Shown one piece after another: positions 10,486 through 51,132 of a stretch of 64,000 bases of DNA; within the stretch, counting starts at the first letter, position 1; each line of letters opens with the position of its first letter. Location of the stretch: positions 3,621,665 to 3,685,664 of the forward strand of contig NZ_CP021850.1 of NCBI RefSeq assembly GCF_002896855.1, given 5' to 3'. The position numbers were made by a program, and so were the translations under genes. Under the pieces are notes generated by a model, which saw only the letters and a list, made by a program, of their open reading frames with translations, did not search any database and was not told the origin of the DNA. The stretch is from Clostridium thermosuccinogenes (GTDB taxonomy: Bacteria; Bacillota; Clostridia; Acetivibrionales; DSM-5807).

Positions 10486-11157
10486 CTATTCGTCAAGACC
10501 CATAATATGCTCATAAGTAATGATATCCATTACATCCGGGTCCCATTGCAGGTCAGCAATTATCTTTGACATATCCGATAAAAAAACTTCTTCAGTTTTC
10601 CCCAAAGAGTTTATATCCATATTTAGGACCTGTTCCGCCTGTTCTCTGGTAATTGGAACCCCACCGTAACAGTAATCCGCCTGAACCAGATTAATCTCCA
10701 CGGCATTAAGATTATCCAACAGAGCAAAAAGTATCACAGCGTCTGCCATCTTTTTCGTGTGATTAACTTTATACTGCTGACCTGCTGTAAGATTCATTTG
10801 ATAATCAATCCTTAAGCTATCTTTATTTTCAGTTATAGACTCAATTCGGAATACTGGCAGTTCTTTAGCATATTGTAATTGACCAACCAACTCCTGCATT
10901 TTGTTCGAATCACTTAGAGAAGTATTCCTGTAAGTATAAAGTAAGCCAAAATCATAAGGAGTATTGATTTCTCCATCTTCTTCCTTTAGAGTAGTTTCTT
11001 CCTTTTGAGCAGTTTCTTCATTTTGAGTCACAGTAGAAACATTCTGATCTTTATCCAAAGTGACCTCGTCTGACCGTGAACAGGAAGTAACTAAAAAGGC
11101 AGTTGATATCATGAGTATCAGTATAGATATGATTGAATAACCTCTCTTTTTATGCAT
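10486..11157 (-). CDS. putative lipoprotein (DUF4825-like)
   Basis: This 223-residue protein is predicted to be exported and lipidated. Positive residues (HKKR) and a hydrophobic helix precede the lipobox VTSC near residue 26. A Ser/Thr/Glu-rich linker follows, then a globular domain with LLYTYRNTSLSD and LFALLDNLNAVEINLV, which recalls DUF4825 proteins of Bacillus. That assignment is tentative. ATG 11157 is chosen because AAGGGTG lies at the right distance. Another lipoprotein gene follows upstream on the same strand, after a gap of about 180 bases counted from its frameshifted end. Confidence 0.6.
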   Translation of the reverse strand: MHKKRGYSIISILILMISTAFLVTSCSRSDEVTLDKDQNVSTVTQNEETAQKEETTLKEEDGEINTPYDFGLLYTYRNTSLSDSNKMQELVGQLQYAKELPVFRIESITENKDSLRIDYQMNLTAGQQYKVNHTKKMADAVILFALLDNLNAVEINLVQADYCYGGVPITREQAEQVLNMDINSLGKTEEVFLSDMSKIIADLQWDPDVMDIITYEHIMGLDE

Positions 11158-11336
11158 CAGGCTCACCCTTAATCAATATTTTTAACTGATTATTTCCGAT
11201 TACTTCAGCGTTGAACCTCAATTTATAAATCACTTGTTTATGAGTATCAATCCTATGACGCAAAATATTGAGCCCAACACTATGCTTAATCCAAATCCTT
11301 CCTTAAAAATTTCAGCATAAGTTTCGGAAAAATAAG

Positions 11337-11902
11337 CTAAAAAAACATTATAATCCTGAACTCCGGTATGCTTTGAATATATTGGAAACTGCTTGAAATC
11401 ATTTTGGATACCACCGTATCAAATGTAAGAGTATCATCATTGGTCAGGATAAATACACCACTATCCTCCAATGGGCTTTCCAAGCTTCCTTCCAGTTTTA
11501 AGAGGTGTTCATAGGGTTTTTTTCCAAGCTTTCCGCACTGGACTCAAATATATAGTAGTAACCATCCCTATAGAACAAATCCGTAGAAAAATAGCTTAAC
11601 TCATCACTGGCATAGAATTTCACAATTCGTATCGATACATCGTTCCCCCGGGAAGAATCCGTTAAGAATTGATCCCATAAACTCTCGTTGGCAACAAAAT
11701 TATAATATCCCTTAACAAAATATCCGTCTTTTTGTGCCATTTCAGGCGTATAGTCCGACGGCATATCGTTAAAGCCTTCATAATTGCCTTCACTATCGAA
11801 AGAAAACTCCAAGGAAGAGTTTATATTTTCTTTTTTATTACACCCTGCAAAGAGAATCATAATGCAAATCAAACATGCTACCATCGAGGCCAATATTTTC
11901 AT
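11337..11902 (-). pseudogene. lipoprotein gene split by a -1 frameshift at an A7 run
   Basis: The zero frame runs 11902-11498 (134 residues) with a signal helix and lipobox LFAGC near residue 20, start ATG 11902 after GGGGAGGG. It ends in ESLEKNPMNTS. At the A7 run (11517-11523) the reading is gaA-AAA-AAC, a slippery heptamer. One step back opens a frame to TAG at 11337 that adds about 60 sensible residues, including YEHLLKLEGSLE and GVFILTNDDTLTFD. The extension is better protein than the zero-frame tail. It may be a frameshift mutation, a sequencing error or programmed frameshifting. The function of the family is unknown to me. Confidence 0.6.
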
Positions 11903-12491
11903 AATCAGCCCTCCCCTACCCCTTTCTTTATGTAAGGCATCCACTCCTTCATGTGTCTTCCCTGTTCAATCATTTATTATAATTGCAAGCCCGGCCAACT
12001 ACATGCTTGTTCCTGAGATGCCCGGAAATTTAAAATATGCATTCCAGCTTGCCTATCTTGTCTGTGCTGCTTCTCTACGCTGGAAAATCCTTGTATCATC
12101 TTGTATCATAATATACATTTTATAGCGCTATTGCCTTCCAATCAATATAACACATATACAAATGTTTACTTGATTTTTTATCAACTCTTTGTCCCGCCAG
12201 ACAATGTGAGCCGGCATGGACTGCTCCATTTTGCTCTACAGGCAAATGTCTTCTGAGTCCAGACGCTGTTTTCCTTGGGATTTTGATATAAACATCAACC
12301 GTTTCAGAGATAATTTTGAGGCTCAATCATCGTATCCTTCGGATTTTACCGCTTATATGAGCGCTCCATAGGAACCTTATCGAACTTATTTACATAATAT
12401 AAACTAAAGTCGTTGTCTCAGGATGGTCCTGTATTGGCACACTTAACAATTAATACTTATTGAAGAATGTATGATGAAGGAGTGCAAAAAT
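11903..12491. other. intergenic, no supported gene
   Basis: About 590 bases precede the glycan island. A minus-strand open frame at 12120-12326 has no ribosome binding site and no family resemblance. I see no strong promoter. Confidence 0.4.
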
Positions 12492-38368: not shown

Positions 38369-40117
38369 TTATTCTACAGGGTACTTCTCCCTCTTGACAT
38401 AATGAGTATGCAAAAGCTCATGAGCTTTATGGCTTCCCGGTTTTTCAAAGTACTCTGTATAGAGCATTTGAACCTTCGGGTTTTCATGGGATTTCCTTAT
38501 TGGCAGATCCCTGTCTTCTTCATATATAGCCTTTGCCCTTTCAGCTCTCAAGTCTATCCAGCTTCTGACTTCAGATGGCTGTATAGGTTGTCCTCCTCCG
38601 TTTACGCAGCCTCCCGGGCAAGCCATGATCTCAACAAAATGGTACTCTGCCTCTCCGGCTTTAATTCTATCCAGGAGGGTTCTTGCATTTTTAAGGCCAT
38701 GGGCTACAGCCGCTTTTAGCTTCACACCGCCGGCTACTACCTCTGCTTCTTTTATGCCTTCAACACCCCTGACCTGAGTATACTCAATATTGTCAATGGA
38801 TTTGCCTTCGAGGATTTCAGCCACTGTCCTTAAAGCTGCTTCCATAACACCACCGGTAGCTCCGAAAATTACACCGGCACCGCTGGCATCTCCCATCGGA
38901 TCATCAAACTGCTCGTCAGCGGTATTGACAAAGTCTATACCAGCTTCCTTAATCATCCTTGCCAATTCCCTTGTGGTCAGAACTACGTCTACATCAGGAT
39001 AGCCGCTGGAAGACAGCTCCGGTCTCTGAGCTTCATATTTCTTAGCTGTACAAGGCATTATGGATACAACAAATATCTTTGAAGGATCAATGCCCATTTT
39101 TTCAGCATAGTAGGATTTCAGCACAGCACCGAACATTTCATGGGGAGATTTACAGGATGAAAGATTATCCAGGAACTCCGGATAGAAATGTTCGCAGAAC
39201 TTGATCCAACCAGGGCTGCAAGATGTTATCAGAGGGAGTTTTCCTCCGTTCTTTATCCTTTCAAGAAGCTCTGTTCCTTCTTCCATTATAGTCAAATCTG
39301 CTGCTGTGTCAGTATCAAACACTTTTTCAAAGCCCAATCTTTTGAGGGCTGCAACCATTTTTCCGGTAACCCTTGTTCCTATGGGCATTCCGAACTCTTC
39401 ACCGAGGGCTACTCTAACGGCTGGCGCTGTTTGCGCAATCACATGCAAGTCCTTATTTGCAAGAGCATCCCATACCTTGTCCGTATCATCCTTTTCCCTC
39501 AATGCTCCAACAGGGCACACGTTGATGCACTGACCGCACATTGCGCAAGGTACGTCATTTAATGACTTGTTGAATACAGGTGAAACAATGGTTTTAAAAC
39601 CTCTCTCATTGGTTTCAACTGCAGCAATACCCTGCACATTTTTACACATGCTGACGCAACGTCTGCAAAGAACACATTTGTTTGGATCCCTTACAACCGA
39701 TGGTGAGAAATCATCCAGAGGACGGATTACGTTTTCACCTTCGAACCTCATATCCTTTACATTGAGCTTCTTAGCCAGACTCTGCAGCTCACAGTTTTCG
39801 CTTCGTACGCAAGTGAGGCATTTCTTATCATGGTTTGACAGTATAAGCTCCAGGGTTACCTTTCTTGCTTCTCTTACCGCCGGAGACTGAGTATTTACTA
39901 CCAGTCCTTCGGATACAGGATATACGCATGCAGCCTGAAGGCTCCTTGCGCCTTTTATCTCCACAACACACATCCTACAGGCGCCTATTTCGTTTATATC
40001 CTTAAGGAAGCAAAGTGTAGGTATTTCTATATTGGCTTCTCTGGCTGCCTCCAATACGGTATAATGACTGGGAACCTGAATCTGCTTGTTATCTATCGTG
40101 ATATTTACCATTTCCAT
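38369..40117 (-). CDS. hydA: NADH-linked [FeFe] hydrogenase catalytic subunit
   Basis: This 582-residue M3-type [FeFe] hydrogenase is the catalytic subunit of an electron-bifurcating HydABC complex, which makes H2 from NADH and reduced ferredoxin together. From the N-terminus: [2Fe-2S] site (C36, C47, C50, C64), His-Cys [4Fe-4S] site (H96, C100, C103, C109), two [4Fe-4S] sites (C148-C158 and C191-C201), then the H-cluster domain with TSCSPGW near 298, MPCTAKK near 355 and EIMACPGGCVNGGGQP near 497. The short C-terminal small-subunit domain follows. ATG 40117 follows GGGAGAG. It is last in the hyd operon. Confidence 0.95.
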   Translation of the reverse strand: MEMVNITIDNKQIQVPSHYTVLEAAREANIEIPTLCFLKDINEIGACRMCVVEIKGARSLQAACVYPVSEGLVVNTQSPAVREARKVTLELILSNHDKKCLTCVRSENCELQSLAKKLNVKDMRFEGENVIRPLDDFSPSVVRDPNKCVLCRRCVSMCKNVQGIAAVETNERGFKTIVSPVFNKSLNDVPCAMCGQCINVCPVGALREKDDTDKVWDALANKDLHVIAQTAPAVRVALGEEFGMPIGTRVTGKMVAALKRLGFEKVFDTDTAADLTIMEEGTELLERIKNGGKLPLITSCSPGWIKFCEHFYPEFLDNLSSCKSPHEMFGAVLKSYYAEKMGIDPSKIFVVSIMPCTAKKYEAQRPELSSSGYPDVDVVLTTRELARMIKEAGIDFVNTADEQFDDPMGDASGAGVIFGATGGVMEAALRTVAEILEGKSIDNIEYTQVRGVEGIKEAEVVAGGVKLKAAVAHGLKNARTLLDRIKAGEAEYHFVEIMACPGGCVNGGGQPIQPSEVRSWIDLRAERAKAIYEEDRDLPIRKSHENPKVQMLYTEYFEKPGSHKAHELLHTHYVKREKYPVE

Positions 40118-40136: not shown

Positions 40137-41933
40137 TCAGTTAGCTTTGGCAATAGCCTTGAATGGGCATTTTTGCTCGCAAACTCCGCATTTTATGCAT
40201 TTATCCTTATTGATCTTATAGGGTACTCCCTTTTGTCCACTGATAGCTCCCACAGGACACTGCTTAGCGCATATTCCGCAGCTTCTGCACTTGTCCTCAA
40301 AGACTGTATAGCTCATCAACGCTTTGCAAACTCCGGCAGGACATTTTTTATCCTTAACATGAGCGATATACTCATCCCTGAAATATCTCAGAGTACTCAA
40401 AACAGGATTGGGAGCTGTCTGTCCCAGACCGCAGAGTGCAGCAGCCTTAATGTTCTTGGCTAAGAGCTCCAGCTTTTCAATATCTCCCTCTTCGCCCTTA
40501 CCGCTGGTTATCCTCTCCAGGATCTCCAGCATCCTCTTGGTACCTATACGGCACGGAGGACATTTACCACAGGATTCATCGACGGTGAACTCCAGGAAGA
40601 ACTTAGCTATGTCAACCATACAGCTGTCCTCATCCATTACTATCAAACCGCCGGAACCCATCATAGCGCCAAGCTGAATCAGGGAGTCATAATCTATAGG
40701 TGTATCCAGGTGCTCTGCCGGAATACATCCGCCTGAAGGTCCACCCATCTGGGCAGCCTTGAATTTCTTGCCGTTAGGTATGCCACCACCGATGTCATAA
40801 ATAACTTCTCTCAAGGTGGTTCCCATTTCTACTTCCACCAAACCGGTATGATTGATCTTTCCACCAACCGCAAAAACCTTTGTACCCTTGCTCTTCTCCG
40901 TACCTATGCTGGAGAACCATTCAGGTCCTTTCAATATGATCTGCGGTATGTTGGCATAGGTCTCAACATTGTTCAGAATTGTAGGCTTCTGCCACAAACC
41001 TTTTACAGCAGGGAACGGCGGTCTTGGCCTCGGCTCTCCTCTTTTTCCTTCTATTGATGTCATGAGAGCAGTCTCTTCACCGCAAACAAAAGCTCCTGCG
41101 CCAAGTCTGAGTTCCAGATCAAAATCGAAGCCTGTTCCTAAGATGTTTTTGCCCAGAAGTCCGTATTCCTTAGCCTGAGCAATGGCAATGTTAAGTCTCT
41201 TTACCGCTATCGGATATTCCGCTCTTACATAAATATAACCCTGGTTTGCACCAATAGCATATCCTGCGATAGCCATCGCTTCAATTACTGAGTGGGGATC
41301 TCCTTCAAGAACGCTTCTGTCCATGAATGCCCCCGGGTCTCCTTCGTCGGCATTACAGCAAACATATTTTTGCTCGTTTTGTGACTTGGAAGCAAACTCC
41401 CATTTCAAGCCGGTGGGGAAACCTGCTCCACCTCTTCCCCTGATGCCTGACCTTTTGACGATATCAATTACTTCCGCAGGGGTCATCTCCGTCAGAACTT
41501 TTTCCAGAGCCTTATATCCGTCATATGCTATATACTCGTCTATGTTTTCCGGGTTGATAACACCACAGTTTCTCAGGGCGATTCTCTTCTGCCTCTTAAA
41601 GAAATCAACGTTCTCCAGGGACTTGGTAACATCCTCAACATCTATGTCCCCTATGAGTAAGCGCTTAACCAGCCTTCCCTTCAACAGGTGCTCTTCTACT
41701 ATCTCCTGGACATCCTCGACCTTGACCTGAGTATACATGCTTCCTTCAGGATATACTATAACTATAGGTCCCTGGGCGCAAAGTCCAAAACATCCTGTTC
41801 TTATCACTTTGACTTCGTTTTCCAGATTAGTTTCTTTCAGACGCGTTTCGAATTCTTTGATTATTTTTTCAGAGTTTGATGATGTACATCCGGTACCTCC
41901 ACAAACCAAAACATGCGCTCTGTATATTTGCAT
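40137..41933 (-). CDS. hydB: hydrogenase NADH/flavin subunit (NuoF-like)
   Basis: This 598-residue subunit carries FMN and binds NADH in the bifurcating hydrogenase. An N-terminal thioredoxin-like [2Fe-2S] domain shows CGGTGCTSSN and GCFGLCAQGP. The NuoF core has GRGGAGFPTGLKWEFA near 165 and an SLBB domain. SCGKCPPCRIGTKRM near 465 binds a [4Fe-4S] cluster. Two more [4Fe-4S] sites at the C-terminus read CRSCGICAKQCP and CIKCGVCEQKCP. ATG 41933 follows GGAGG at seven bases; the GTG six bases earlier overlaps that site. Confidence 0.94.
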   Translation of the reverse strand: MQIYRAHVLVCGGTGCTSSNSEKIIKEFETRLKETNLENEVKVIRTGCFGLCAQGPIVIVYPEGSMYTQVKVEDVQEIVEEHLLKGRLVKRLLIGDIDVEDVTKSLENVDFFKRQKRIALRNCGVINPENIDEYIAYDGYKALEKVLTEMTPAEVIDIVKRSGIRGRGGAGFPTGLKWEFASKSQNEQKYVCCNADEGDPGAFMDRSVLEGDPHSVIEAMAIAGYAIGANQGYIYVRAEYPIAVKRLNIAIAQAKEYGLLGKNILGTGFDFDLELRLGAGAFVCGEETALMTSIEGKRGEPRPRPPFPAVKGLWQKPTILNNVETYANIPQIILKGPEWFSSIGTEKSKGTKVFAVGGKINHTGLVEVEMGTTLREVIYDIGGGIPNGKKFKAAQMGGPSGGCIPAEHLDTPIDYDSLIQLGAMMGSGGLIVMDEDSCMVDIAKFFLEFTVDESCGKCPPCRIGTKRMLEILERITSGKGEEGDIEKLELLAKNIKAAALCGLGQTAPNPVLSTLRYFRDEYIAHVKDKKCPAGVCKALMSYTVFEDKCRSCGICAKQCPVGAISGQKGVPYKINKDKCIKCGVCEQKCPFKAIAKAN

Positions 41934-41948
41934 TTCCACCCCTCCAAA

Positions 41949-42317
41949 CTATTTTTCAGCTGCTCCTATGGTATACTCGGTGCATACTCTTCCGTTAACT
42001 ATATGTTCGGCTACAATCCTGACGGCCTTCTCAGGAGTCATTTTAACGTATGTCACTTTTTCACCGTCCGGATTGATAACCTCAACTATCGGTTCAAGGC
42101 GGCAGACTCCTATGCAGCCAGTCATCACAACATTAACATTATTGATATTCCTCTTTTTGAGTTCTTCAAGGAAAGCATTCATCACAGGCCTTGCTCCGGC
42201 GGCGATACCGCATGTAGCCATACCCACAACTATTCTTATTCCGTCCTTGTTTTTTCTCATATTGATTTCATCCAGAGTCTTCCTTCTTATCTCTTCCAAC
42301 TCAGCAATAGATTTCAT
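41949..42317 (-). CDS. thioredoxin-like [2Fe-2S] ferredoxin of the hyd operon
   Basis: This 122-residue protein has a thioredoxin-fold ferredoxin domain with four cysteines (VGMATCGIAAGARP, then MTGCIGVCRLEP). It is homologous to the N-terminus of HydB and lies between hydB and the ATPase gene. It may be a free electron carrier or an accessory subunit. ATG 42317 follows GGAGGTG, inside the end of the ATPase gene, so translation is coupled. Confidence 0.85.
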   Translation of the reverse strand: MKSIAELEEIRRKTLDEINMRKNKDGIRIVVGMATCGIAAGARPVMNAFLEELKKRNINNVNVVMTGCIGVCRLEPIVEVINPDGEKVTYVKMTPEKAVRIVAEHIVNGRVCTEYTIGAAEK

Positions 42318-42867
42318 CCAATACACCTCCAAACGTTATCTTAACGCCTTCATTTAAATACTCTTTAATCCATGCCAAAACCTCATAATGAGTTATGGGA
42401 ACTTCACCAAGCTTTTGCTTTATCTCCTCTGTGCTGAACTCAAAACTGCCATTGGGGCTGGTGAGCTTAAATTCCACCTCTACCTCGGGGTTTGATGAGA
42501 CCACGGTCGCGATGGTTTCTGAAATATCTCCCAGAGGAGGCCTGTCTATATGGGATAGCTTAAAACTTGCCATTAATACAGTGCCATTCCCTTTAGCGGA
42601 ATCAATGCTCAAGCTTCCCGACGATCTCTCACAGGAAGCTGCCAGAAGCGGAATTCCCAGACCTACTTTTCTTGTATCTCTCGAAGTGACAAAGGGATCC
42701 ATAACCCTTTTTACCAGCTCCTCGTCCATTCCTGTCCCATTATCGGCTACAGTCATTTTCAATATATCCATGCTTTTGTCAGCATCGAATGTAATATAGA
42801 TACGGCTGGCTTTAGCAGTTATGGAGTTCTGAATTATATCCATAAGATGCAGCGATAAATCCCTCAT
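42301..42867 (-). CDS. GHKL ATPase-domain protein of the hyd operon
   Basis: This 188-residue protein has a histidine-kinase-type ATP-binding domain: MDIIQNSITAKAS (N box), VADNGTGMDEEL (G1 box) and KVGLGIPLLAASCER (G2 box). It has no dimerisation/phosphoacceptor domain and no sensor. Genes of this kind recur in clostridial hyd operons. It could be a serine kinase or a regulator of hydrogenase, but the role is unknown. Confidence 0.8.
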   Translation of the reverse strand: MRDLSLHLMDIIQNSITAKASRIYITFDADKSMDILKMTVADNGTGMDEELVKRVMDPFVTSRDTRKVGLGIPLLAASCERSSGSLSIDSAKGNGTVLMASFKLSHIDRPPLGDISETIATVVSSNPEVEVEFKLTSPNGSFEFSTEEIKQKLGEVPITHYEVLAWIKEYLNEGVKITFGGVLDEIYC

Positions 42868-43043: not shown

Positions 43044-43538
43044 CTACATATTCTTGTACTTTTCAATTATACCTTTGATATCATCCGGAACCAATTTTCC
43101 GTAAACATCATCATTAATCATCATAACTGGTGCCAAACCACAAGCGCCAATGCATCTGCATGCTTCCAGAGAGAACTTGCCGTCCTCGGTGCACTCTCCT
43201 ACATCTATGCCAAGCATCTCCTTGAGCTTTTCAAGAATCAGGTTTGAACCTTTAACATAGCAGGCTGTGCCCATGCAAAGTTGAATCTTGTATTTTCCCT
43301 TGGGATTTAATGAAAACTGTGTGTAGAATGTTATGACTCCATATACTTCGCTGAGTGGTATATCTAAACCTTCAGAAATCTTTTTCTGGACGCTTAACGG
43401 CAAATAACCGTATACTTCCTGAGCTTCATGCAGAACCGGAATAAGCGCACCCTTGGTGTTCTTATACTTATCAATGATTTCCTGCAGCTTCAGCTCTCTT
43501 TCGTCAACTTGCCCACAGCAGCATTTGGTAGTACTCAT
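43044..43538 (-). CDS. hydC: hydrogenase [2Fe-2S] subunit (NuoE-like)
   Basis: This 164-residue NuoE homologue carries one [2Fe-2S] cluster with ligands in CMGTACYVKGS and CRCIGACGLAPV. It joins HydB to form the NADH module. It is first in the hyd operon, behind a consensus promoter and a Rex-type operator. A 176-base gap separates it from the ATPase gene. ATG 43538 follows AGGGGGG. Confidence 0.93.
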   Translation of the reverse strand: MSTTKCCCGQVDERELKLQEIIDKYKNTKGALIPVLHEAQEVYGYLPLSVQKKISEGLDIPLSEVYGVITFYTQFSLNPKGKYKIQLCMGTACYVKGSNLILEKLKEMLGIDVGECTEDGKFSLEACRCIGACGLAPVMMINDDVYGKLVPDDIKGIIEKYKNM

Positions 43539-43595: not shown

Positions 43596-43613
43596 TTGTT
43601 AAATACTTCACAA
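43596..43613. promoter_or_regulatory. Rex-type operator of the hyd operon
   Basis: TTGTTAAATACTTCACAA differs from the Rex palindrome TTGTTAAnnnnTTAACAA at one position. It lies just downstream of the -10, over the expected start site. Rex would repress when NADH is low and release when NADH is high, a fitting control for an NADH-oxidising hydrogenase. Confidence 0.8.
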
Positions 43614-43855: not shown

Positions 43856-43883
43856 TATAAAAAATGCAGCTTATGCTGCATTT
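43856..43883 (-). terminator. terminator of metA
   Basis: AAATGCAGC (43862-43870), loop TTAT, GCTGCATTT (43875-43883), overlapping the metA stop. The minus strand continues TTTTTTATA. Confidence 0.88.
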
Positions 43884-44799
43884 ACTCTATTTTACTCAGA
43901 TCGTAAGGTGTCTCCTGATATACATAATAGTTCAGCCAGTTGGCAAACAGCAGGTTTGCATGGGACCGCCATGAAACTATCGGGGCCTTTGAAGGATCAT
44001 CACCGGGAAAATAATTCTTAGGAGGCTCTATTTCCAAGCCCTTGGCTACATCCCTGTCATACTCTGACTTCAAAGTTAGGGGATCATATTCTGAATGTCC
44101 CGTAACAAATATCTGCCTTCCCTGACGGGCGACAACTATGTATACTCCCGCTTCACTGGATTCCGACAGGATTTCCAGCCCCGGCACCCGTTCAATGTCG
44201 GCCTTCTTAACCTCGGTATGCCGTGAATGGGGAGCTTTAAAGACATCGTCAAAACCCCTCAGCAGCTTCACATTCTTTTTGCTTACCGTATGGTCAAATA
44301 CACCAAACATCTTCTTGTCAAGCCGGTACTTGGGGATGCGATAGTGGTGATAAAGCCCTGCCTGAGCTCCCCAGCAGATATGGAAGGTGGAATACACATT
44401 GTGCACACTCCAGTCCATTATCTCCTTTAGCTCTTCCCAGTAATCCACCTGTTCGAAATCCATCAGCTCCACAGGGGCTCCTGTTATTATCATTCCGTCA
44501 AACTTCTGGTCCTTTATGTCGTCAAAGGTATTATAGAATTTAATTAAATACTCCTGGGGAGTATTTTTAGACACATGGGTTCTAGGATGAAGCAACACAA
44601 TATCCACCTGCAGCGGTGAATTGCCAAGCAATCTGAGAATCTGAGTCTCAGTTTCTATTTTTTTCGGCATCAGATTTAGTATTGCGATTCTAAGAGGTCT
44701 AATGTCCTGGTGATAAGCCCTGAACTCGTCCATTACAAAAATGTTCTCATTATTTAGCACTTCCACAGCCGGAAGATCATTTGGTACTTTTATAGGCAT
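43882..44799 (-). CDS. metA: homoserine O-acyltransferase
   Basis: This 305-residue enzyme acylates homoserine in methionine synthesis. It shows [18 protein letters not shown] near residue 37, [17 protein letters not shown] near 108 and the catalytic cysteine in [10 protein letters not shown] near 142. The Glu in GAPVE is, in studied members, linked to acetyl-CoA rather than succinyl-CoA use, so it may be an O-acetyltransferase. ATG 44799 follows GGGGGAGG. I see no SAM riboswitch or T-box in the 87-base leader. Confidence 0.93.
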
Positions 44800-44886: not shown

Positions 44887-45606
44887 TTATAATCTTCTTT
44901 TCTTCAGCGTTTCAATCAGGCAAGGGGCACTTATCTCCTCCAGCTCCAGAAAGCTTGACCTCTCCAATATATCTCCCAGGCGGTGGGCATCTGAAGACTT
45001 GATGAAATTATGTTCCCTAAGGTGAGAATGCCTGTTCAAGAAGACCTGCAAATCGCATTCATTGGATATTTCCAGAGTTTTTATTCCAAGATAATCGGGA
45101 ATAATGCCGAGGTTTGACAAAATACTGTAGGATTCCCTGTCTACATGGGCTGGGATAACCGTTCCCCCAAGCAAATCCACCTTTTCAAAAACATCGTCCA
45201 CACTGAGGTCTGCGGCGGTTATCAGCAGCTTTTGAAAACATCCGGCTATGCCGTCATCCCTATCCATTATCAACTGCCTGCCAAAGACATCCTCCCTGTT
45301 ATCAATATCCGGCAGGGCGGCATGAACCAGTTCCTGCATCTTAAGTGCTGATTCTACGGATGGAAACAAGCATACCAGATGCACTTCCTCTCTGGTCTCC
45401 ACTTCCATGCCGGGAATCACAAGGATGCCTCTTTCCTTTGCACACATCGATACCGCCGCGCAGTTCATGGATGCATTGTGGTCTGTTACCGCAATGATGT
45501 CCAGCCCTTTCAGCCAGGCCATACCAGCTATATTATTAGGAGTCATGTCATCCTCCGCGCACGGCGACAGTGCAGTGTGAATATGCAGGTCTACGGCTGC
45601 CTTCAT
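44887..45606 (-). CDS. PHP-domain phosphoesterase
   Basis: This 239-residue protein has the PHP metal motifs DLHIHTALSPCAEDD at the N-terminus, DIIAVTDHNAS near 36 and SSDAHRLGD near 203. Related proteins include histidinol phosphatases and 5'-3' nucleases (TrpH/RNase AM type). It is last in a group with DRTGG and [FeFe]-domain proteins on the same strand, 190 bases after the second DRTGG gene. ATG 45606 follows AGGGGGC. Confidence 0.82.
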   Translation of the reverse strand: MKAAVDLHIHTALSPCAEDDMTPNNIAGMAWLKGLDIIAVTDHNASMNCAAVSMCAKERGILVIPGMEVETREEVHLVCLFPSVESALKMQELVHAALPDIDNREDVFGRQLIMDRDDGIAGCFQKLLITAADLSVDDVFEKVDLLGGTVIPAHVDRESYSILSNLGIIPDYLGIKTLEISNECDLQVFLNRHSHLREHNFIKSSDAHRLGDILERSSFLELEEISAPCLIETLKKRRL

Positions 45607-45764
45607 ATTTGCCCCCTGTTTTAATATTGATTCCTGGGTTCAAACCCGTTTTGCAATAGCCTTAATGAATTTATATCCAGCGCAAAAGCGGCTTTTTACA
45701 TCATCATTGATTTGCATCGTCATTGACCTTCATTTTATAAGAATCGCTCAATTAATAAAGCCAA

Positions 45765-45792
45765 GAAGCCCATCCCTTATAGAGATGGGGAG
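45765..45792 (-). terminator. weak terminator after the second DRTGG gene
   Basis: CCCATC (45769-45774) pairs with GATGGG (45784-45789). The minus strand continues CTTCTTGGCTTTATT. The stem is short and the tail imperfect. Confidence 0.35.
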
Positions 45793-45796
45793 AAAT

Positions 45797-46135
45797 TCAC
45801 TTTCCGGCCAAAAGCTCTCTGCTCCTGAAGCACACTTCATAGGCAGTCATTTCGGTGCCCAATATCGCTATTCCTTCCTGCTTTGCCTTGTTTATGGTCG
45901 CTTCATCGGCACAAACTCCTTCCGGCAGTATAATGCAGCTTATCCCTGTAAGCAGGGCAACTGCGACTATATTGATGTGGGATTGTACAGTTATCCATGC
46001 ATCTCCCGACGAAGCGTGGGACATAACCCAGCTTAGAAGGTCACAGGTATATATGCCGGATACATCCTTATCCATGCCGGCATCCTCCGTGAGAATCCTC
46101 ATTCCCATTTGTACTGCGAAATCCCGTACTTTCAT
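45797..46135 (-). CDS. DRTGG-domain-like protein 2
   Basis: This 112-residue protein has the small alpha/beta fold seen in DRTGG domains: CDLLSWVMSHASSGDAWITV near residue 30 and INIVAVALLTGISCIILPEG near 54. It is related to the DRTGG protein at 48083-48436. ATG 46135 follows AAAGGAG; the 12 extra residues of the longer frame cover that site. The role may be sensing of an adenine nucleotide, but this is not shown. Confidence 0.72.
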   Translation of the reverse strand: MKVRDFAVQMGMRILTEDAGMDKDVSGIYTCDLLSWVMSHASSGDAWITVQSHINIVAVALLTGISCIILPEGVCADEATINKAKQEGIAILGTEMTAYEVCFRSRELLAGK

Positions 46136-46209
46136 ATCATCAATCTCCTTTTGTTTATTGGATTTTAGCACCTGGTCTTCAAATTCTTATTTTTGCTTTA
46201 AAATTTATG

Positions 46210-47535
46210 TTATCTGTTTTTCTTTCTTACCCTGTCCATCACTGGAGGCATCTTGTCTTCAAGCTCTATCATCTGTGCAGCAAGGTTCCTGACTTTTTCC
46301 CTGAGCTTGAATATGCAATCCGTTTCATCCGCATTTCCCCTTACGATATCCTCCGCCAGAGCCTTGCAGCTGGGTGCTCCGCATGCTCCACAATCCAGGC
46401 CAGGAAGCTCAGCATAGATATTTTTCATATTCGCCATCATCTCCATGGCTTTCTGAATATCATCATCCAGCTTCATCACAGGCCTGTGTTCAATAACCCC
46501 CAGTACGTCCACTTCATCCTTGTATTTTTCGGGGCTGTCCTTCACCACGGCATCGGCTTTCATCTCATCCAGAATCCTTTTAAACCTGTTCTTTGCCACA
46601 TACAGATTTTCTACCGTCAACGGTCCTCCCAGGCAGCCTCCCGTACATGCCAAAGCTTCTATAAACTCCACATCCTCCAGCCTGTCGTCTTCAACATCGT
46701 CAAGAATTGCTATGACATTATGAATTCCATCTACTGCAAGAAATTTATCGGTTCCCAAAGCGAGGCTTTCTCCTCCCGAATTAGCCCATCGTACTCCGTC
46801 ATACCCGGCCAGGTCGAAATCTTCGGCTTTTCCGGCGGCTTTATCCAGTTTGCTGAGGACTTTCAGATAAATATCCTTTATGGAAATCGCTCCATTGACA
46901 TAAGAACTGGTTTTGCCATAGGGAGCCTTAATGCTGGTGACCTTTGCAGCGCACGGAGTTATAAAGAAAACTCCTATATCTTCTCCGCGAATCCCTTTAT
47001 CCCTGCTGATCTTTTCCTTGGCCATTTTGGCTGTAACCTCCATAGGGGAGTCCAATCTCAATATGTTATTGATAAGGTTCGGAAACCTCACCTGTATAAG
47101 CCTGACCACCGCAGGACATGCTGAAGAAATTAGGGGTTTTTTGACATCAGTTTTCTCAAGAAGCTCCCTTGTAGCAGCGGATACAATCTCTGCCCCTTTT
47201 GCTACTTCATAAACTTCATCGAAACCGATCATTTTTAAGGCCGTAAGCAATTGCCTTCTGGTGATATTAGCTTTAAACTGCCCATACAAGGTAGGAGCCG
47301 GTATTGCAACCCTGTACTTATACGCATAAATCAGGCCGAAAGGATCACTTATCGCTTTTTTTGCATGATAAGGGCATATGCGGATGCATTCTCCGCAATC
47401 TATGCAGCGTTCGTTGATAATCCTCGCCTTGCCTTTTCTTACCCTTATCGCCTCGGTGGGGCAACGCTTTATACAGTTGGTACAACCCCTGCAACTCTCC
47501 TCATCCAGCGTTACAGAGTGAAAATATGTTCCCAT
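46210..47535 (-). CDS. [FeFe]-hydrogenase-domain iron-sulfur protein (HydS/HfsB-like)
   Basis: This 441-residue protein starts with two [4Fe-4S] sites (C15-C25 and C44-C54). A hydrogenase large-subunit-like domain follows with changed H-cluster loops: SSACPAVV (C140), ITPCAAKV (C195) and ALACTGGCLGGP (C297, C301). Four H-cluster cysteines are thus present, but the loops differ from HydA. A Fe-S domain, LDCGACGAPSCKAL ... DC (C382-C407), ends the protein. It has no PAS domain. Such proteins are often called sensory hydrogenases; redox or H2 sensing is plausible. ATG 47535 follows GGGGGTG, and a Rex-type site lies 30 bases upstream. Confidence 0.82.
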   Translation of the reverse strand: MGTYFHSVTLDEESCRGCTNCIKRCPTEAIRVRKGKARIINERCIDCGECIRICPYHAKKAISDPFGLIYAYKYRVAIPAPTLYGQFKANITRRQLLTALKMIGFDEVYEVAKGAEIVSAATRELLEKTDVKKPLISSACPAVVRLIQVRFPNLINNILRLDSPMEVTAKMAKEKISRDKGIRGEDIGVFFITPCAAKVTSIKAPYGKTSSYVNGAISIKDIYLKVLSKLDKAAGKAEDFDLAGYDGVRWANSGGESLALGTDKFLAVDGIHNVIAILDDVEDDRLEDVEFIEALACTGGCLGGPLTVENLYVAKNRFKRILDEMKADAVVKDSPEKYKDEVDVLGVIEHRPVMKLDDDIQKAMEMMANMKNIYAELPGLDCGACGAPSCKALAEDIVRGNADETDCIFKLREKVRNLAAQMIELEDKMPPVMDRVRKKNR

Positions 47536-47564
47536 GGAATCACCCCCGGGTTATAGTTGATCGG

Positions 47565-47582
47565 TTGTTAATTTATTAACAT
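47565..47582. promoter_or_regulatory. Rex-type operator upstream of the [FeFe]-domain gene
   Basis: TTGTTAATTTATTAACAT matches the Rex palindrome TTGTTAAnnnnTTAACAA in all but the last base. It lies between the RsbW-like gene and the [FeFe]-domain gene. No clear -10/-35 pair accompanies it. Confidence 0.72.
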
Positions 47583-47657
47583 TCCATCCGACATTTCCCG
47601 CATATGCAAATCAACATGCATTAATCATCGAGCATTTAAGTGCCTCTATAGTCCCAT

Positions 47658-48092
47658 CTATTTTAAATACACTATCATTGTAACTTTAGTTCCTTTTCCG
47701 ACTTCTGTATCTATGATCATTTCATCCGAGTAGCGTTTCATGTTGGGAAGTCCCATTCCGGCGCCAAAACCCAGTTCCCTTACGCTGTCAGGAGCGGTAG
47801 AGTAGCCTTCCTGCATTGCCAGTTCAACGTCTTCTATCCCTGGTCCATGATCTGTTATTTCTACTACAATTTTTTCCGGGCTAATATCTATATCGGCAGT
47901 CCCGCCGCCGGCATGAATTACAGCATTTATTTCCGCTTCATACATGGATACCGTAGTCTTCTTTATCAGCGCGGGACTAATACCCAGCTGGCTGAGGACT
48001 TTCTTTACATTGCTGGAAGCCTCTCCTGCAAGGGAAAAGTCGTCTGCAGGTATGTCATAATGAAGTTTTAGTGAAGCTCCGCTCAATCCCAT
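47658..48092 (-). CDS. RsbW-like anti-sigma/serine kinase ATPase
   Basis: This 144-residue protein has a GHKL ATP-binding fold of the RsbW/SpoIIAB type: VSMYEAEINAVIHAGGGTAD (N box) near 49, EITDHGPGIEDVELAM (G1) near 77 and LGFGAGMGLPNMKRYSDEM (G2) near 106. It overlaps the upstream DRTGG gene by ten bases. Such proteins phosphorylate anti-anti-sigma factors or act alone as switches. No STAS partner is present here. Confidence 0.8.
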   Translation of the reverse strand: MGLSGASLKLHYDIPADDFSLAGEASSNVKKVLSQLGISPALIKKTTVSMYEAEINAVIHAGGGTADIDISPEKIVVEITDHGPGIEDVELAMQEGYSTAPDSVRELGFGAGMGLPNMKRYSDEMIIDTEVGKGTKVTMIVYLK

Positions 48093-48436
48093 GCACCTCT
48101 TCCTGTAAGACCTGCACTGTAGAGCTTTCCGCAGGCAATAAACATGGGCAGCTTCGTTGTCAAAACCGAAATCCCTTTTTCTTTGGCAAGGTCTATGATG
48201 TTCTCTCCGGGATTCTTACCTCTTACAAACACAACCACCTTTATGTCCATCATCTCAGCAGTGCGTATTACCTGAGGATTTACCAGGCCTGTCAGCAGGA
48301 GGACGCTGTCCTTCACATAAGCCATGACATCACTCATCAAATCCGAGCCGCAGGCTGACTTGATGTCTATATCGAGATTTTCTTCGCATGATAGAATTTC
48401 TGCATCAAGAATGCCGATTACTTCCCTGAGCTTCAT
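48083..48436 (-). CDS. DRTGG-domain-like protein 1
   Basis: This 117-residue protein is the first gene of the redox-linked group. It shows KSACGSDLMSDVMAYVKDSV near residue 30, LLTGLVNPQVIRTAEMMDI near 51 and VFVRGKNPGENIIDLAKEKG near 74, as in DRTGG domains. ATG 48436 follows GAGGTG. Its end overlaps the RsbW-like gene, so the products are likely made in step and may interact. Confidence 0.75.
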   Translation of the reverse strand: MKLREVIGILDAEILSCEENLDIDIKSACGSDLMSDVMAYVKDSVLLLTGLVNPQVIRTAEMMDIKVVVFVRGKNPGENIIDLAKEKGISVLTTKLPMFIACGKLYSAGLTGRGAWD

Positions 48437-48967: not shown

Positions 48968-50629
48968 TCACATGCCGTAAAAAACACTGCCACCGATGAA
49001 TTCCCGTATTATCGAATTATTGGGTATCTCCTTATGGTCAATGGGCAGGAAATTCCCCAAAAATTCCAGAAGCCTTTTTGCCTCCGAATACTCCCTGCAG
49101 GATCTGTCGATTTTGCTGAGCAGGGGCTCGGCAAAGACCTTTAGCACACCCAACTCATAAATCAGCGATGAGTTGAACATTACATCCGCTTCCTCCTGGA
49201 AGGGGAATATGTTCCTGGTTTCACCCCTTCTTACCGAAGGCCACCGTTTGATAGTGTCCTCGGCAGAACTGGCTCTGAACTGGTAATCCCTTACGATCCT
49301 TCTTATAAACCTCGCATCCGTCGTAGGTATCCTGTTATGATCGTCAATATTCATGGAGGTTAATGCGCTCACATATATTTTGAATTTGTCCTCCCTTTTT
49401 ATCGTGGATGTGAGCTTCTCATTGAGGCCATGGATACCTTCTATAATCAATATCTGATCTTCTTCGATTTTCAATTTTCTCCCGACGTTCCCTCTTCTCC
49501 CAGTGGGAAAATCAAAGATGGGGACTTCCACCTCCAGACCGCTTATAAGGCTGGCCAGGTGCAGATTGAACAGCTCCACGTCAATGGATTCCAAGGCTTC
49601 AAAATCCAATTCTCCTTTCTCGTCCCTGGGAGTATGCTCCCTGTCCACAAAATAATCGTCCAGGGATATGGTAACCGGTCTTACACCATTGACCCTCAGC
49701 TGGATTGACAGCCTCTGGGCGAAGGTTGTCTTACCTGATGAGGACGGACCGGAAATCAGCACGACTCGTTTTTTATGGCTGCTCCCGGTAATCATGTCGG
49801 CAATCTGAGCTATCTTCTTTTCATGTATGGCCTCGGAGACTCTGATAAGGTCGCCAATCCGGCCTGACGCCACAATATTGTTTAGCTCTCCCACCGTATC
49901 AACGCCCAGAATGCGGCCCCACCTTGTATATTCCGAGAACACATTAAACAACTTCTTCTGCTCTTCAAACTCAGGAAGAACATCCGGATTCGACTTTTCA
50001 GGGAAAAGCATTATAAGGCCCGGAGGATAGTACTTGAGGGAGAATACCTTCAAATACCCTGTATCGGGAACCATGTATCCGTAAAAATAATCATCCAGGT
50101 CATCGCACCTGTACATGGTGACATAGGGCTTCTTTCTGTGCTCTATAATCTGGAAGCGGTCCATCCTGTTATTTTTAATAAAAATTTCTCTGGCTTCATC
50201 TATGGGAACTTCCCGTTTGATAAAAGGAATTTTTGCTTCCACCAGCTCTGCCATACGCTGCTCCAGCCTTTTCACCTCATCGGAAGTCAGTTCTTTTTTT
50301 CCGATTATCTCACAATATATCCCTTTACTAATGGAATGGTCGATTATTACTTTTCTGTCGGGAAAAAGGTCATGAGCAGCCTTTATCAATAAAAAGTGCA
50401 GGCTTCTCCTGTAAATGCGCATTCCGTCTTCGTCGGTCAAATCGATGAATTCGACGCTGCAGGGTTCTTCCAGCCTATATGTCAGTTCCTTTATATCATT
50501 ATCCACTTTTGCCGCCACAATGAGCGCTCTGTATTCATTTGCAAAATCCTTGCTCAGATCAAGCAGCATGGTTCCTTCAGGAACATCTATTTTCCTTCCG
50601 TCTGCTAAGGTTATCTTTATCAATTTCAA
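48968..50629 (-). CDS. TGS-domain nucleoside (uridine) kinase-like protein
   Basis: This protein of about 553 residues joins an N-terminal TGS domain and a threonyl-tRNA-synthetase-like second domain (about 1-240) to a C-terminal P-loop kinase. The Walker A loop GPSSSGKTTF lies near 293, followed by ISLDDYFVDR and IFDFPTGRRG, as in uridine kinase and phosphoribulokinase. The fusion is common in Firmicutes; the substrate is unproven. The usual start GTG 50644 lacks a ribosome site, whereas TTG 50629 has GAGGGCG in front, so I choose the latter. Confidence 0.83.
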   Translation of the reverse strand: MKLIKITLADGRKIDVPEGTMLLDLSKDFANEYRALIVAAKVDNDIKELTYRLEEPCSVEFIDLTDEDGMRIYRRSLHFLLIKAAHDLFPDRKVIIDHSISKGIYCEIIGKKELTSDEVKRLEQRMAELVEAKIPFIKREVPIDEAREIFIKNNRMDRFQIIEHRKKPYVTMYRCDDLDDYFYGYMVPDTGYLKVFSLKYYPPGLIMLFPEKSNPDVLPEFEEQKKLFNVFSEYTRWGRILGVDTVGELNNIVASGRIGDLIRVSEAIHEKKIAQIADMITGSSHKKRVVLISGPSSSGKTTFAQRLSIQLRVNGVRPVTISLDDYFVDREHTPRDEKGELDFEALESIDVELFNLHLASLISGLEVEVPIFDFPTGRRGNVGRKLKIEEDQILIIEGIHGLNEKLTSTIKREDKFKIYVSALTSMNIDDHNRIPTTDARFIRRIVRDYQFRASSAEDTIKRWPSVRRGETRNIFPFQEEADVMFNSSLIYELGVLKVFAEPLLSKIDRSCREYSEAKRLLEFLGNFLPIDHKEIPNNSIIREFIGGSVFYGM

Positions 50630-51132
50630 ATCGCCCTCTTTCACAATCTATGCGTCCATGCAAATCGGAATTTGCGGTAGTTATAGTTATTGCTTCTCTT
50701 ATTTTATTCTATGCATGAAACACAAATTCCTTCATACCCAACTCAGTACGCTTTTAATCAAAGCCACTGTTAATTGACAGAACCCATGGCTATAATATAA
50801 AATGTTTAAGTGCCTTAAGAATCATTAAAATGCAAAACAAGTTGGATTCATGCAAAGGATGATGGCCATGCCGTCCCTTTTTGCACAATCTATACGTCCA
50901 TTGCCGGTTGATTTACTCCACAAGCAAAACAGTTTATTAACGACGCAGCGGAACTCTGACAGATATCCGTCATGCAGTCATAACTAAGAAGCAAAAAACC
51001 GGTATTTATATATTATAGCATAAAGTTTCAAATTGCTTATGACATAAAACAGGCACCGAATAATCGATAGGGTATAAAAAATAATATTTAGCAGATAGAC
51101 TATATGAAATAGCCATGGAAAGAGGATTAGAA
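50630..51132. other. divergent intergenic region, no supported gene
   Basis: It must hold promoters for the nucleoside kinase and prfC. No repeats or convincing frames were seen. Confidence 0.4.

Follow-up and report, generated by a model that had tools for sequence, protein, structure and literature searches.

The DNA considered here, which we call the window, is a 64,000-nucleotide stretch of Clostridium thermosuccinogenes (contig NZ_CP021850.1, positions 3,621,665 to 3,685,664). At 44887-48436 of the window, the initial annotation had placed five small same-strand genes linking an H-cluster-type protein to two DRTGG proteins, a switch-type ATPase and a PHP phosphoesterase, with a further ATPase and a ferredoxin in the neighboring hyd operon. 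Five minus-strand open reading frames (ORFs) were found there and, according to the ORF list, they are transcribed in the order DRT1, RsbW-type kinase, HydS, DRT2 and PHP, the ORFs of DRT1 and RsbW overlapping each other (Table 1). Domain, profile and structure searches bore out the identities proposed for these members, and the start of DRT2 is most likely the conserved ATG at 46135. The hyd operon reads NuoE, HATP2, small [2Fe-2S] protein, NuoF and HydA, so that the additional ATPase and the ferredoxin are also present.

Table 1. Coordinates of the module, the Rex-like sites and neighboring genes in the window.
Feature	Coordinates	Strand	Evidence or remark
DRT1, stand-alone DRTGG-fold protein, encoded first in the module	48083..48436	-	Pfam DRTGG 30.4 bits, over cut-off
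RsbW/SpoIIAB-type GHKL kinase	47658..48092	-	HATPase_c_2 1.3e-13
HydS, group D (M2e) putative sensory [FeFe]-hydrogenase, 441 amino acids	46210..47535	-	Fe_hyd_lg_C 7e-37
DRT2, second DRTGG-fold protein	45797..46135	-	DRTGG 20.9 bits; Pfam cut-off 25.2
PHP-family metal-dependent phosphoesterase	44887..45606	-	Pfam PHP 36.3 bits, 9.2e-9
Rex-operator-like palindrome TTGTTAATTTATTAACAT, between RsbW and HydS	47565..47582		one mismatch to TTGTTAANNNNTTAACAA
Rex-operator-like palindrome TTGTTAAATACTTCACAA, upstream of the hyd operon (before NuoE)	43596..43613
HydC/NuoE-type [2Fe-2S] subunit, hyd operon	43044..43538	-	2Fe-2S_thioredx 8e-57
HATP2, second GHKL ATPase, without HisKA	42301..42867	-	HATPase_c 5.5e-14
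Small thioredoxin-like [2Fe-2S] ferredoxin	41949..42332	-	domain search; kept between HATP2 and NuoF
HydB/NuoF-type flavoprotein subunit	40137..41939	-	profile search
HydA, NADH-dependent [FeFe]-hydrogenase, group A6	38369..40117	-	NF040763 943 bits, cut-off 765
Homoserine O-succinyltransferase gene	43882-44799	same as module and hyd operon

The gene set was followed through 160 loci sampled from about 52 GTDB families, 80 taken from one genome sample and 80 from a second collection, some genomes being in both (G033 = L147). The arrangement is not peculiar to the window genome: 136 of the 160 loci carry all five genes on one strand in this order, and contig ends truncate many of the others. 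The median gap is -4 bp for DRT1-RsbW, HydS-DRT2 and DRT2-PHP, about 20 bp for RsbW-HydS and 132 bp before NuoE, which is the pattern of a coupled unit followed by a second unit. Within the order, 48 of 58 genomes encode HydS; across the phylum it turned up in 119 of the 299 genomes sampled. RsbW is present in exactly the same 48 genomes, and all but one of these (47) also have PHP, the exception being a 55%-complete assembly with HydS at a contig end; HydS, RsbW and PHP are all missing from the other ten, the losses being spread over several families. Such co-occurrence would arise by chance about once in 5e10 if no relatedness is assumed, a figure that kinship lessens. A close A6 HydA (79-80% identity) is retained in six of the ten genomes lacking the module, and the module is therefore accessory to the hydrogenase. 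Seven loci keep only RsbW and HydS; this pair is therefore the apparent core. The explanation by a single genome or by passenger genes was rejected on the conserved order and the joint loss of HydS, RsbW and PHP.

Single-frame fusions join DRT1 to RsbW in eight loci, RsbW to HydS in L137, HydS to DRT2 in L089 and L096, and PHP to HATP2 in L124, L128 and L129, such that four of the five members are chained in operon order and PHP is tied to the ATPase encoded within the hyd operon. Gene fusion is indirect yet established evidence of physical contact, and the possibility raised with the initial annotation, that no physical link exists among the products, is countered by these fusions, which argue for contact. 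From the fusions, RsbW and DRT2 rank as the most likely direct contacts of HydS. That the five genes form one system is well supported by the gene comparisons.

The domain search divided HydS into two N-terminal [4Fe-4S] motifs (Fer4), the H-domain and a C-terminal iron-sulfur (FeS) domain, and gave no match in the window protein to a PAS domain, whose C-terminal presence marks group C (M2f). As had been claimed, the protein keeps its cysteines while its loops are altered: the H-cluster cysteines (C140, C195, C297 and C301), eight N-terminal ones and the C-terminal Cx2Cx4Cx16C cluster (C382-C385-C390-C407) are present, and 16 out of 16 are kept in all 80 complete sequences of an 81-sequence comparison. 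The altered loops match the signatures of group D and are therefore not damage. In the numbering of TamHydS (PMC8163306), the proton-transfer Cys299 corresponds to Ala139 in HydS, a position that is never Cys in the 81 sequences, and Met353 corresponds to Thr193, a position with Ser or Thr in 79 of them. The pathway E252-E289-S249-D265, termed exclusive to group D (PMC10407848), is found in HydS as E256-E293-S253-D269, at a constant offset of +4. The conserved TamHydS residues R30, R32, K35, K58, D378, E392, D393 and D403 (PMC13104023) are likewise all present, with a constant local offset. In the H-domain tree, from which TamHydS itself is absent, the HydS group forms a branch of its own, split from groups A, B and C at a support of 0.998. 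All these sequence characters agree in making the [FeFe] protein a group D (M2e) putative sensory hydrogenase, an assignment that rests on the published TamHydS residue numbers (PMC8163306, PMC10407848, PMC13104023). HydG was detected in the window genome with 920 bits in the profile search; the HydG model run over 36 module-bearing genomes also missed genomes with a full HydA, and its absences were not used.

The active-site motifs of the kinase and of PHP are intact. The ATP site of the RsbW protein is complete (E52, N56, D81-x-GPGI and the lid GFGAGMGLPN), and in the alignment of relatives the N-box Glu and Asn, the DxGPGI motif and the lid are at least 90% conserved. Its closest PDB match is the anti-sigma F kinase SpoIIAB (1til, E-value 8e-9); we nevertheless label it RsbW-type and not an anti-sigma factor, because its spIIAB score of 61.7 is below the equivalog cut-off of 135 and the gene maps show no STAS or sigma-factor gene beside it. 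The PHP protein retains the motifs HxH, DH, E, H, H and DxH, with LSPC replacing the Asp usual after the first motif, and its metal set (H8, H10, D42, H43, E68, H76, H154, D206 and H208) is at least 90% conserved.

The profiles of DRT1 and DRT2 match each other with a probability of 99.3%. The AlphaFold2 model of DRT1 (predicted local distance difference test, pLDDT, 86.7) has AF1212 (2ioj, Pfam DRTGG) as its best PDB match, with a template modeling (TM) score of 0.79, and that of DRT2 (pLDDT 93.7) matches the same structure with a TM score of 0.76. DRT2 is thus, by its predicted structure, a DRTGG relative despite its sub-cut-off Pfam score. The letters DRTGG are absent from both window proteins. 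DRT1, present in nearly all of the 160 loci, has the conserved motifs DLxSD, LLTGL and FVRGKxP, and a nearly invariant Ser and Thr are common to both proteins (S39/T53 in DRT1 and S47/T61 in DRT2), which makes these residues possible candidate phospho-acceptors. A STAS-like structure for DRT1 and DRT2 was also considered and was rejected, as the fold searches gave no STAS match.

Two Rex-operator-like palindromes with at most one mismatch lie in the 64 kilobases of the window, where 0.04 are expected. In the relatives, Rex-like sites were found at 7 of 141 DRT1 starts, at 15 of 112 NuoE starts and at none of about 1,030 other starts, and at least six loci have a rex gene immediately ahead of the module. 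For C. bescii, Rex has been reported to bind ahead of the hyd genes, at Athe_1295, with which the five hyd genes begin (PMC6391272). The enzyme beside the module is exchangeable: in eight loci (L124, L125, L128, L129, L140, L141, L142 and L144) the HydA subunit is swapped for a formate dehydrogenase whose gene has an in-frame TGA in the context DHCARL-U-H, which marks the enzyme as a selenoprotein, and in two loci the module runs into rnfC-rnfD.

We propose, with a probability of roughly 55%, that the module is an H2/redox-responsive kinase–phosphoesterase switch controlling NADH-linked H2, formate or ferredoxin enzymes. HydS would read H2 or a low-potential redox state via its H-cluster and change conformation, and its state would alter the activity of the RsbW-type kinase, its near-constant partner. 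The DRTGG-fold proteins may serve the kinase (DRT1) and HydS (DRT2) as adaptors or phospho-acceptors, carrying or relaying phosphate that PHP would take off. The output would tune the activity or expression of the adjacent NADH-linked enzyme, usually HydABC and in some lineages formate dehydrogenase or Rnf, and the switch would run parallel to NADH control by Rex. The identities of the parts, their order, co-loss and fusions, the intact kinase and PHP sites, the Rex-like sites and the exchange of output enzymes are the sequence evidence on which this proposal is built, while H2 as signal, phosphorylation as currency, the DRTGG roles and the identity of the target and direction of its control are what we infer. 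Redox or H2 signaling, as already suggested in the initial annotation, is the best reading because the genes form one conserved unit whose [FeFe] member falls in putative sensory group D. The nucleotide-based output suggested along with it found no support: the DRTGG fold alone is no proof of nucleotide binding, and an RsbW-type kinase with a phosphoesterase points at least equally to protein phosphorylation.

TamHydS offers the biochemical precedent for such a sensor, as it is a low-turnover, H2-responsive group D enzyme (PMC8163306, PMC13104023), and an H2-induced secondary-structure change has been reported for it, as cited in PMC13104023. Several observations weigh against the proposed switch. 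The C-terminal cluster of TamHydS was not reduced by H2 (PMC13104023). The catalytic Glu256 is lost in three complete relatives, the stand-alone L122, L138 (Rnf) and L144 (formate dehydrogenase), all of which keep the 16 cysteines and are not linked to a hydrogenase; H2 turnover therefore cannot be essential everywhere, and these cases, which are few, suggest a redox-only sensor without H2 turnover. HydS occurs without RsbW in L107 and L114, as second copies in their genomes. PHP families act mostly on small molecules or nucleic acids, and the missing STAS and sigma-factor neighbors of the kinase belong to the same side of the balance.

Other explanations were weighed as well. The DRTGG proteins might bind a nucleotide that PHP hydrolyzes, with HydS gating by redox state. 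Both DRT models also match 3l2b, the DRTGG part of the regulatory region of the CBS-DRTGG pyrophosphatase, and the nearest profiles of PHP are the nucleoside-bisphosphate phosphatase, RNase RNM and TrlF families, with scores far under the cut-offs; however, nucleotides bind the CBS domains of that pyrophosphatase, the DRTGG motif itself is absent here, the kinase would be left without a role and the set contains no cyclase or nucleotide synthetase, so we consider nucleotide signaling improbable. Even less inclined are we toward a partner switch in which RsbW sequesters a sigma factor encoded elsewhere, under the control of HydS and with hyd in the regulon. The homology to RsbW/SpoIIAB and the active site would fit, as would the group C relatives that are fused to or beside transcription regulators, but the sub-cut-off spIIAB score speaks against it, the window genome's own sigB-type locus carries both the STAS and the sigma genes that are lacking here, and transcriptional control is already offered by the Rex-like sites.

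The close association of the module with hyd, fdh and rnf operons, and the position of HATP2 inside the hyd operon with its fusion to PHP in three genomes, would also suit a dedicated system for the assembly, repair or on-off control of HydABC-type enzymes, with the GHKL ATPases serving as chaperones and HydS donating electrons or providing a scaffold. We give this the same low standing as nucleotide signaling, in view of the A6 HydA that persists without the module in six genomes and of HydG, which already serves H-cluster maturation. Finally, HydS could be just a slow catalytic hydrogenase with unrelated passengers as neighbors, given that TamHydS interconverts H+ and H2 in vitro (PMC8163306); the strict order, the co-loss and the fusions make this very improbable.

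Some features of the surroundings deserve mention. In the window, the homoserine O-succinyltransferase gene splits the module from the hyd operon, which in relatives are usually adjacent. Just upstream of DRT1, at 48968-50644, lies a gene for a 558-amino-acid protein with a C-terminal uridine kinase/PRK domain, and several members of the order (L068, L073, L074 and L077) have an ORF of 555-558 amino acids in the same or a nearby position. The L1 motif of HydA is TSCSPGW, with Ser where the second Cys would normally align, as in all six relatives aligned. H-domain proteins of other architectures occur in the loci of some relatives. In L135 (11753-13978, minus strand), a 741-amino-acid [4Fe-4S]/H-domain/FeS sensor is joined to a sigma-54 activator with a Fis-type helix-turn-helix near the group D module, and by its domains it is a predicted one-protein H-cluster transcription activator. 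In L085 (6034-7947, minus strand) and L093 (5934-7847, minus strand), a protein of 637 amino acids with H-domain, FeS and methyl-accepting chemotaxis protein (MCP) signaling domains directly follows RsbW-HydS, with no DRTGG or PHP genes in these loci. An H-domain-FeS-PAS-HisKA-HATPase hybrid of 767 amino acids (L089, 12469-14772, minus strand), accompanied by an NtrC-type response regulator (11088-12455), lies just ahead of a module made up of DRT1, RsbW and a HydS-DRT2 fusion.

Among the closest described systems is that of TamHydS from Thermoanaerobacter mathranii (PMC8163306, PMC10407848, PMC13104023), which shares with HydS the domain layout, the 16 Cys, the lack of PAS, the missing proton-transfer Cys, the Glu-Glu-Ser-Asp pathway and a gene position ahead of a trimeric group A hydrogenase, with a GHKL ATPase in the vicinity. 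The papers on TamHydS mention, as signaling partners, no more than a kinase-like gene at its flank and an AraC regulator, whereas DRT1, RsbW, DRT2 and PHP are here a conserved, partly fused set, found also with formate dehydrogenase and Rnf. That group D sensors lie upstream of trimeric hydrogenases with kinases nearby was noted in 2012 (PMC3561251) and 2020 (PMC8163306). The available text of PMC3561251 lists the M2e/hyd pairs Cthe_0335/0340-0342, Athe_1292/1297-1299, Csac_1857/1862-1864, Cphy_3798/3803-3805 and Teth39_1463/1456-1458, for which a regulatory link through kinases was proposed; the spacing of these locus tags fits HydS, DRT2, PHP, NuoE, HATP2 and then the hyd genes, and the gene arrangement of L077 (G014) fits the published locus-tag order exactly. 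In Acetivibrio thermocellus the module would correspond to Cthe_0333-0337. In that text, DRTGG, RsbW, PHP and the fusions are not discussed. Our literature search returned nothing relevant pairing RsbW or DRTGG with [FeFe] hydrogenase, and no paper on the DRTGG, RsbW and PHP members as a set, Calusinska 2010 being outside the search. Of the statement that the mechanism is undescribed, the part concerning the whole set therefore stands, but the group D sensor, its site upstream of hydABC and the adjacent kinase-like gene had been published (PMC8163306, PMC3561251). What we describe is a known kind of sensor in a signaling architecture that seems undescribed. The identification of group D interaction partners was called critical and unresolved in the 2026 TamHydS paper (PMC13104023), and the module supplies four conserved candidates; the same sensor accompanies formate dehydrogenase and Rnf too, and the subject bears on the balance of NADH, ferredoxin and H2 in fermenting and syntrophic bacteria, including biofuel strains.

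Kinases of the SpoIIAB/RsbW anti-sigma type share the kinase fold and catalytic residues with the module, but their partner switching involves a STAS antagonist and a sigma factor in place of DRTGG proteins and PHP. Similarly, DRT1 and DRT2 have the DRTGG fold of the CBS-DRTGG pyrophosphatase region (3l2b/3l31) and of AF1212 (2ioj) and, unlike these, stand alone without CBS and have lost the DRTGG motif. It is tempting, although we hold it only tentatively, to see here a new class of switch in which a metalloenzyme gas sensor would directly control an RsbW-type kinase, with the DRTGG fold replacing STAS and PHP replacing the PP2C phosphatase, to tune an NADH-linked hydrogenase, formate dehydrogenase or Rnf, and acting as a pure redox sensor in lineages lacking the hydrogenase. 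The group C (M2f) sensors (R. albus HydS, hfsB-hfsC; PMC6776011, PMC11837493) are alike in their H-domain and C-terminal FeS layout and have a PAS domain and, as partner, a Ser/Thr phosphatase from the SpoIIE-type phosphorylation machinery, whereas group D has no PAS and has an RsbW-type kinase, DRTGG proteins and PHP as partners. The window genome also encodes a group C-like [FeFe] protein (573 amino acids) followed by a SpoIIE-type phosphatase (390 amino acids; L227:5560-8450, minus strand, G000:C1 about 3225059-3227949). In R. albus, a role in H2-dependent regulation has been ascribed to group C sensors that are paired with Ser/Thr phosphatases (PMC6776011). The kinase-linked group D and the phosphatase-linked group C would be, by analogy, two halves of one familiar chemistry.

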